From: Polyangiaceae bacterium
GTDB taxonomy: Bacteria > Myxococcota_A > Polyangia > Polyangiales > Polyangiaceae
Assembly (NCBI GenBank): GCA_013214025.1
Contig: JABSRN010000164.1
Span: forward strand, 1 to 64,000
Direction of reading: 5' to 3'
Length of the DNA: 64,000 bases
The position numbers and the translations under genes were made by a program. Positions 14,263 through 16,469 of this stretch are shown here, one piece after another (positions within the stretch are counted from its first letter, which is position 1; each line of letters starts with the position of its first letter). The notes beneath the pieces are model-generated. The model did not search any database. It was not told the origin of the DNA and saw only the letters and a list, made by a program, of their open reading frames with translations.

Positions 14263-15804
14263 ATGAGACAATTCCTGAGTCCGACGCTGACCCTTGTACT
14301 ATTCGCCTCAACGACCATCGCCCGGGCGGATCTGGCGCCGGGATCGCCTTCTGAGAACTTCGAAGAAACGGAGTTAGCCAGCGGACTCCCCTCCCCGACC
14401 TCTGTGACTTTCTTGCCAGACGGCACGATGCTCGCGACAGGCAAGGGGGGACAGCTGTGGTTGCAAGCCCCCGACGACACGCTCACTACCGCCGGCTCAT
14501 TCAACGTGGATACGGAGAGCGAAAAAGGTTTGCTCAATGTGCTTGTGCATCCAGAATTCGACACGAATCGTTTGCTTATTGTCTACTATTCCGCGGCCGA
14601 CTCAGCAGACGTGGACGACAACAACCGTCATCGAGTCACCACCATCGCCCTGAGGAGCGATGGGCAACTCGATATGGCGAGCGAGACGATCTTGCTGGAC
14701 GGACTGCGGGGCCCCGCCAATCACGACGGCGGAGCGCTCGCCATCGGGCCTGATGGCTTTCTGTACGTCGGCGCTGGTGACACCGGCGCGAACAACCGTT
14801 CTCGCCCGGAAGACGAAAATCCTCCAACGAACTATTTCCCGACTTGTCTCACCAACGGCAACGGCAAGATCCTGCGCATTGCTTTGGATGGCTCTATTCC
14901 GGATAACAATCCGCTTGTTGGCGAGACAGTCACCGCTTGCGGCAATAGCGCGGGGGAGCAGCCCTCCACCACCGCGATGGCCCGCGAGGATATCTTCGCG
15001 TGGGGTTTCCGAAATCCTTGGCGACTGTGGGTCGACCCTCTCACCGGCAATGTGTGGGTGGGTGATGTTGGCAATATCGCCTACGAGGAAATCAACGTCA
15101 TTACCCCGGAGCTCGTTGGCAGTAACTTCGGCTGGCCGTGGCGCGAAGGCATGTTCGGGCACGCCCCCACTCAGTGCGAGCTCGCGACATCCCACGGTGG
15201 CGACTGCGTCGATCCCGTGTATCAGTGTGCGCGCAGCGAAAACGAAATCGGCATCGACGGCGGGTGTCAGTCGATCATTGGTGGCCTGGTCATCGATTCC
15301 TGCGAATGGCCCGAGGAGTTTCGCCACCGTTACTATCTGGGCGATAACCGCCTAGGTGAAATCGGATATCTCGAACTAAACGCAGATCGGAGTCGCGTGG
15401 TGGGTCGACGCCAACCATTCATCGTCAACGCGGGTCCCGTACACATCACCCAGGGTCCTGACAAGGCGCTGTACTATGTAAATTATGGTCGCGGCGCCAT
15501 CTACCGCGTCGCGCCGAGCTCGCCCCCACCCAGCTGTACAGAACCCGGGACCGGCGGCACGGGGGCAGGTGGCACCGGCACAGCATCTGGCGGAACCACC
15601 GGAACGAACAACACCGGCGGCACAGCATCCGGCGGCACAGCATCCGGCGGCATTAGTGGTAGCGATGCCGGAGGCGGCAGCACCGGAGACGGTGCCTCTT
15701 GCGCCTGCGAGTTGCCGGGTCGCAAAAGCGACGGACAGCCGCTCTTGACACTTGTCGCGCTGATGTCCGTCTCGATGCGACGGTTCCGCCGACGTAATCG
15801 ATGA
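14263..15804 (+). CDS. PQQ-type sugar dehydrogenase with MYXO-CTERM tail
   Basis: A 513-residue exported quinoprotein of the soluble glucose/sorbosone dehydrogenase (YliI-like) family, which oxidises aldose sugars with PQQ. The signal peptide ends near TTIARADLAPG. The six-bladed propeller shows ANHDGGALAIGPDGFLYVGA (catalytic His region, about 150-169), FAWGFRNPWRLWVDP and VGDVGNIAYEEINVI. A Gly/Thr/Ser-rich linker (about 425-475) leads to a C-terminal sorting signal: Cys480 and Cys482, a hydrophobic stretch, and an Arg-rich end (MRRFRRRNR), the MYXO-CTERM pattern processed by myxosortases. The product should therefore be moved to the cell surface. Its stop overlaps the start of the selenoprotein gene (ATGA), so the two are translationally coupled. 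Confidence 0.87.
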   Translation: MRQFLSPTLTLVLFASTTIARADLAPGSPSENFEETELASGLPSPTSVTFLPDGTMLATGKGGQLWLQAPDDTLTTAGSFNVDTESEKGLLNVLVHPEFDTNRLLIVYYSAADSADVDDNNRHRVTTIALRSDGQLDMASETILLDGLRGPANHDGGALAIGPDGFLYVGAGDTGANNRSRPEDENPPTNYFPTCLTNGNGKILRIALDGSIPDNNPLVGETVTACGNSAGEQPSTTAMAREDIFAWGFRNPWRLWVDPLTGNVWVGDVGNIAYEEINVITPELVGSNFGWPWREGMFGHAPTQCELATSHGGDCVDPVYQCARSENEIGIDGGCQSIIGGLVIDSCEWPEEFRHRYYLGDNRLGEIGYLELNADRSRVVGRRQPFIVNAGPVHITQGPDKALYYVNYGRGAIYRVAPSSPPPSCTEPGTGGTGAGGTGTASGGTTGTNNTGGTASGGTASGGISGSDAGGGSTGDGASCACELPGRKSDGQPLLTLVALMSVSMRRFRRRNR

Positions 15805-16469
15805 ACGGCTCGGCGGAACCCCAAGGGCACGAGGGCCCGCACCGCCGCCGCCGTTACACAAAGCGCCGACGCCGGGGTGTTTCCCGAACACTCGTCGACG
15901 TTGTCATAGCGATTGGGCTCATGGTCGCCCTTGGCGCTTGTCGCGTCATCCTCCCGATATTCGGCTATCCCCCGGCTGCTCAGCGCAGCACGCCCCCACC
16001 GGAGATTGAGCACCAACTACTGGCCGCTGGGCGGCCGGCGCCTGCCATCAACCTGCCCACGACCCAAGCTTCCTGGACCCTCGCCCCCGAGACTCGACAC
16101 CTACTGGTATTTTACCGGGGGGCTTGGTGACCCGATTGTCGTAAACAGCTCGGGCAGCTGCAAGACCACTACCAAGAGTTCCAGCGGCGAGGCGTTCGGC
16201 TCGTCGGAATCAGCACGGACGAACCCCAGGCAGGACAGGGCCTCGTGGAACGACTGGGGTTGGAATTCCCGCTAGCGTCGGATCGCGATGGAGTGCTGGT
16301 CCGACGCTACGGCACGTTCGACGCCGAGAACGAAATTGCCTGGCCATCGGTGTTTGTCATCGATCGGCACGGGAAGATCGCTTGGCGATCGCCGGCTCAG
16401 TCGAAACAGATACGCCCCACGGTTCGAGAAATTCTCGTTCAGTTCGACCGACTGACCGCAGCGGACTAG
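15801..16469 (+). CDS. Peroxiredoxin-like selenoprotein (in-frame UGA = Sec)
   Basis: A 222-residue AhpC/TSA-type thioredoxin-fold protein if the TGA at 16128-16130 (codon 110) is read as selenocysteine. The frame stays open for 112 more codons and encodes a normal redoxin: LLVFYRGAW-U-PDCRKQLGQL, VRLVGISTDEPQAGQ, LGLEFPLASDRDG, AWPSVFVIDRHGKIAWR. Homologues have Cys where UGA stands, giving a UxxC redox motif with Cys113. The N-terminus has an Arg-rich head and one transmembrane helix (about 30-48), so the domain faces the periplasm. A hairpin with a G-containing loop lies 15-30 bases after UGA. The ATG overlaps the dehydrogenase stop. The alternative is a nonsense mutation of a Cys codon; UGA landing exactly on the active-site Cys makes that less likely. 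Confidence 0.8.
16128..16163 (+). promoter_or_regulatory. UGA codon plus bacterial SECIS-like hairpin
   Basis: After the TGA, fifteen bases lead to a five-pair stem (CAGCT 16146-16150 with AGCTG 16156-16160) closing the loop CGGGC (16151-16155); a lower TTG/CAA pairing (16136-16138 with 16161-16163) could extend it across a bulge. The loop begins 21 bases after UGA and has G near its start, like the E. coli fdhF element bound by SelB. A weaker competing stem CCCGA/TCGGG (16131-16135 with 16150-16154) also exists. Only a fold calculation can rank them. Confidence 0.6.

Follow-up and report, generated by a model that had tools for sequence, protein, structure and literature searches.

In this study, a redoxin gene of the UxxC type was analysed in a window of 64,000 nucleotides (the whole stretch of DNA examined, from a member of the Polyangiaceae), and the single in-frame UGA of this gene is, by comparison with its homologues, very probably decoded as selenocysteine. 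Its product convincingly adds a member to an established kind of selenoprotein, the UxxC "Prx-like" proteins described since 2005, and does not represent a new mechanism. The frame (15801-16469, forward strand) runs from ATG to TAG, and its lone internal stop is the TGA at codon 110 (16128-16130), with the surrounding residues VFYRGAW-U-PDCRKQLGQL. The features of the gene are as follows.

15801..16469, forward strand: predicted UxxC redoxin selenoprotein gene, 222 residues, TAG stop included; single in-frame TGA, Pfam AhpC-TSA, TGA homologues
15885..15950, forward strand: hydrophobic helix near the N-terminus (residues 29-50), a putative membrane anchor or lipoprotein signal; pattern, hydropathy and structure model
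16029..16385, forward strand: AhpC/TSA (peroxiredoxin-fold) domain, residues 77-195; Pfam and structure match to AhpE
16128..16130, forward strand: UGA codon 110, predicted selenocysteine, the U of UxxC
16137..16139, forward strand: Cys113 codon, supplying the C of UxxC, in the peroxidatic-Cys column; alignments with AhpE and with TxxC peroxiredoxins
16146..16160, forward strand: SECIS-type hairpin, stem CAGCT/AGCTG, loop CGGGC, the loop beginning 20 nt past the UGA; shuffles, covariation and local fold

With the TGA read as a residue, the window protein matched Pfam AhpC-TSA at 2.8e-28 (98.8 bits, cut-off 26), and the coherence of the frame beyond the TGA that the first-pass annotation had described is real, because this match spans residues 77-195 and thus covers both flanks of codon 110. 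Among the 18 AhpC/TSA matches in the genome, only that of the window gene contained a stop. Standard annotation cuts the gene short inside the active site, so that the window protein and its many relatives are likely to go unnoticed. The frame, the homology, the conserved UGA, the conserved hairpin, the Sec gene set and the predicted fold are results of the analysis, and the actual insertion of Sec, together with the export, the chemistry and the substrate of the protein, is inferred.

The first-pass annotation had placed the UGA at the peroxidatic cysteine of the redoxin fold. Alignments with M. tuberculosis AhpE and with TxxC peroxiredoxins contradicted this placement: it was Cys113 that matched the peroxidatic Cys, and residue 110 matched the Thr three positions earlier; against the true peroxiredoxins of the phylum (TPGC/TxxC), U110 likewise lay in the Thr column. 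The position carrying Sec is now read differently, and the proposed UxxC redox motif itself, formed by U110 and Cys113, was retained. In the alignments, the predicted Sec occupies the Thr of TxxC, which is the thioredoxin-type nucleophile position of CxxC, and Cys113 occupies the peroxidatic position. The same distinction between UxxC in the Prx-like family and TxxU in the Sec peroxiredoxin was drawn previously (PMC1088965). The AhpC/TSA domain (PF00578) and a UxxC in place of the Prx TxxC or TxxU, which characterize the Prx-like UxxC proteins, were both found in the window protein. It is not a typical peroxiredoxin (AhpC, PrxU or PrxQ), as it has U at the Thr column and scored far below the cut-offs of the corresponding models.

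In the mechanism that we propose, SelB, held by the hairpin directly downstream, would bring Sec-tRNA to UGA110, and the product would be a Prx-like thiol:disulfide oxidoreductase that is exported and held by a membrane or lipid anchor. Sec110, as the first residue of the thioredoxin-type UxxC, would make the nucleophilic attack, Cys113 would resolve it via a selenenylsulfide, and disulfides or peroxides would be reduced at the outer face of the inner membrane. Comparison strongly supports the predicted decoding step, and the motif suggests the chemistry and the substrate. A role mainly as a peroxidase, in which Sec110 or Cys113 reduces hydroperoxides at a peroxiredoxin active site and the partner residue resolves, is conceivable but somewhat doubtful. 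The fold is nearest to those of AhpE, AhpC and similar peroxiredoxins, and in the structure comparison the redoxin domain of the model matched AhpE with a Z score of 24.1 and an rmsd of 1.2 over 147 residues; the best single-sequence PDB match, however, was ResA, and the top-scoring NCBIfam model was PRK03147 ResA. Similarly, the alignment of Cys113 with the peroxidatic Cys and the invariance of Arg205, near the C-terminus, in the first seven members fit a peroxidase, whereas the U in place of the Thr of the Prx TxxC yields a UxxC, a motif of the thioredoxin type.

Of the seven places that lay nearest to the window gene in a search of 59 relatives (E values of 1e-40 to 5e-18), all but one, a Cys form, contained exactly one TGA, as did the best homologues from the same taxonomic family. 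A profile built from seven UGA-type proteins was run against 379 genomes from the phylum and retrieved many more one-TGA loci, with TGA in nearly all of the best matches. In the aligned loci, column 110 was TGA in 28 distinct loci, namely the window and 27 others of the same phylum (the 30 TGA rows of the alignment count in three duplicates and leave out the window). The other loci had TGC or TGT in Cys homologues and ACG or ACC (Thr) in true peroxiredoxins, and neither TAA nor TAG was found at this column among the homologues examined. The closest TGA loci were 35-46% identical to the window protein. At 20 further places, mostly distant, the column held TGA, Cys, Thr or Ser, with TGA in 14 (one place, L199, is the same as L167). 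Thus, the homologue alignment that the first-pass annotation had proposed shows Sec and Cys homologues running through codon 110 and the TGA in independent assemblies, and an in-frame UGA, continued coding and Sec or Cys homologues at the site, as in bacterial selenoproteins, were all found.

A nonsense mutation or a decaying pseudogene, which would fit a frame broken by TGA when the Cys codons TGC and TGT are one base off, is very improbable, since 27 other distinct loci stop at the same column, always with TGA, the downstream frame is intact and the hairpin is conserved at synonymous sites. An assembly or sequencing error at 16130 is even less credible: the source assembly is a draft (5.77 Mb in 184 contigs, 97% complete), but the same codon occurs in independent assemblies. 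For practical purposes, the recurrence of TGA at column 110 across homologues excludes decay, error and chance. In the tree of Sec and Cys forms, about 5 changes were needed, and the Sec form may nevertheless have a single origin. The Cys forms L153, L161, L157 and L164 were nested among or near UGA forms on this tree, and the genome of L153 has a tRNA-Sec, which would allow a possible exchange of Sec and Cys. In addition, a distant second group of UGA redoxins was observed in the phylum (L183, L184, L185, L189, L190 and L191), with the motif F[YF]RSA[VI]WUPPC[WL]TQL[GV]ELRD (for example, FYRSAVWUPPCWTQLGELRD), the same UGA column, a near-identical hairpin and longer open frames of about 410-520 residues. 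In phages, only weak partial matches were found, in 3 unannotated records.

The first-pass annotation had also proposed a search of the same genome for selA, selB, selC and selD, and all four are present, as in other bacteria that make selenoproteins. The tRNA-Sec scored 67 bits, with the anticodon TCA assigned by ARAGORN; selB (311 bits) lies beside it and selA (428 bits) is adjacent, so that the three stand side by side on one contig. SelD scored 253 bits against a cut-off of 125 and is fused behind an oxidoreductase domain. This fusion protein (L022, 247-2553) has 768 aa, and the domain ahead of SelD is a pyridine nucleotide-disulfide oxidoreductase domain. As a further Sec user of the genome, formate dehydrogenase alpha gave no match above the cut-off. 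Across the phylum, a strong selB match was present in 22 of the 25 genomes with a close UGA homologue and in 189 of the 354 others (Fisher p 0.0006, a guide only, as the genomes are not independent); one of the three exceptions (G030) has a tRNA-Sec, and the remaining two are incomplete assemblies. Reassignment of UGA to another amino acid, or its broad read-through in this organism, could likewise explain one sense-like UGA in the window and is extremely improbable, given that the upstream gene and several homologous genes end in TGA, that the Sec machinery is complete and that the 17 other AhpC/TSA matches of the genome have no stop. The claim of a selenoprotein was thus upheld by the homologous TGA loci, the conserved hairpin and the Sec gene set.

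The hairpin CAGCTCGGGCAGCTG (16146-16160) follows soon after the UGA. Bacterial SECIS elements have been described as having a loop of 3-9 nt, a stem of 4-16 bp, a G in the first two loop positions and a distance of 16-37 nt from the UGA (PMC13188914), and the window hairpin agrees with this geometry, with the 5-nt loop CGGGC, a 5-bp stem and a spacing of 20 nt. Fold energy alone was rejected as a measure of the element: relative to synonymous shuffles, the window had a z of 0.13 and the UGA group averaged only -0.9. The test was therefore based on position-specific pairing. At least 5 of the 6 inner pairs were kept in 26 of the 28 UGA genes, where 12 were expected from synonymous shuffles, and the observed pairing was reached by none of 2000 shuffles (z 7.1), with the codon usage of the window applied to all genomes, shared ancestry uncorrected and the Cys homologues as the control. 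No excess of pairing was found in the Cys homologues, neither in the 8 with the same QLxxL-type peptide nor in all 94. As the pairing test was devised after the hairpin was seen, these homologues and slid structures were taken as controls. In the seven-pair helix, 92.9% of cells were paired, compared with 15-52% once it was slid by 1-3 columns. Furthermore, the outer pair occurred as GC, CG, UA and AU, compensatory changes at this pair were present in 14 of the 28 sequences, and CAA...TTG replaced CAG...CTG in two genes.

The SECIS-like hairpin invoked by the first-pass annotation therefore exists and is conserved beyond chance, but its own fold as a free strand is less favourable. The window hairpin is among the weaker copies, with 5 bp and -5.2 kcal/mol alone or -7.0 kcal/mol with flanks, and scored alone it would miss the bSECIS energy threshold of -7.5 kcal/mol or lower (PMC13188914); longer segments fold lower, in another pairing. 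In the free strand, the hairpin loses to an alternative pairing that involves the bases adjoining the UGA, and the hairpin became dominant (pair probabilities of 0.83-0.91) only when the first 12 nt, comprising the UGA and nine bases, were held unpaired, as they are under the ribosome. An Rfam scan of the window returned tRNA only. The strong conservation of the hairpin makes it useful for finding further members.

Prx-like thiol:disulfide oxidoreductases of PF00578, also named "Prx-like 1", have been documented as UxxC selenoproteins (PMC1088965, PMC1794560, PMC2398784, PMC13188914), including in deltaproteobacteria such as Geobacter (PMC1794560), and PF00578 UxxC/UxxU counts among the high-confidence predicted families in a 2026 review (PMC13188914). 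The window protein shares with them PF00578, a UxxC in place of TxxU, a bacterial SECIS immediately behind the UGA, numerous Cys homologues and a Sec-decoding host. It differs in that its group is lipoprotein-like or membrane-anchored, is widespread in one phylum and carries FYRGxWUxxCRxQLGEL. In the defining features examined, it fits the Prx-like UxxC group, of which Geobacter WP_010940744.1 is a published member.

In NCBIfam, the window protein was below the cut-off of every model that it matched. For the members scored, one of the nearest redox families with a name is the SelL-related redox protein model (NF040769), with a match that covers the active-site half, but its cut-off of 120 bits was reached by none of them (42.5 bits for the window protein and 46-69 bits for relatives). 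SelL is known for a UxxU motif, in contrast to the UxxC of the window protein. The TxxU Sec peroxiredoxin (PrxU, NF040737) shares the peroxiredoxin fold and a Sec in the active-site loop, whereas the predicted Sec of the window protein lies three residues earlier, at the Thr, with a Cys at the peroxidatic place, and the score was 27.5 bits against a cut-off of 270. Oxidoreductases of the ResA/TlpA/DsbE type, which share an N-terminal anchor and a CxxC-type motif in a thioredoxin fold, gave the best NCBIfam E-value (3.6e-14), but with 53 bits against a cut-off of 170, and the structure comparison put peroxiredoxins on top.

In a word search of the literature consulted, no paper tying Myxococcota to the Prx-like UxxC family was found; Anaeromyxobacter is listed with other selenoproteins. 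The present results describe numerous UxxC redoxins, encoded with UGA and in most cases carrying a lipobox, that form a large group within one phylum. A broader view, that these form a phylum-wide, mostly lipid-anchored Myxococcota selenoprotein family outside the current NCBIfam models, combining a Sec at the thioredoxin nucleophile with a Cys at the peroxidatic position of one peroxiredoxin-fold site, acting as a mixed peroxidase and disulfide reductase on the cell envelope and constituting a main purpose of Sec decoding there, is speculative and unlikely to hold as a whole.

The structure model (mean pLDDT 83.6) consists of a helix at residues 29-50 and the redoxin domain. The membrane anchoring proposed in the first-pass annotation was supported by this helix, which includes the lipobox-like AIGLMVALGAC with Cys47 (codon 15939-15941). 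In most UGA homologues, the corresponding position likewise shows a lipobox or a hydrophobic helix. The window protein is thus probably an exported lipoprotein. The start codon is not certain, because a basic stretch of 28 residues comes before the hydrophobic helix, and an internal start is possible, as the distance between the ATG and the lipobox Cys is unusually long. Anchor and domain are joined by a conserved linker, roughly [FY]PPxARRxxPPxGI (residues 54-70 of the window protein), in one subgroup that includes the window protein and was seen in L103, L133, L144, L146, L147, L148 and L149.

One gene lies immediately upstream of the redoxin gene.

14263..15804, forward strand: gene of the glucose/sorbosone dehydrogenase (GSDH) family; Pfam GSDH 1.1e-37

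This gene overlaps the start codon of the redoxin gene by ATGA (15801-15804), and translational coupling of the two genes is therefore suggested. As a conserved operon context, the GSDH gene was rejected, since none was found beside the homologues within flanks of mostly about 1.5 kb. Elsewhere in the window, another in-frame TGA (28278, forward strand), with 143 open codons before it, 155 after it and a CxxU pattern, looks like a chance occurrence in GC-rich DNA. The GSDH-family protein itself contains a Gly/Thr-rich low-complexity stretch and has a hydrophobic, Arg-rich C-terminus that resembles a surface-sorting tail.
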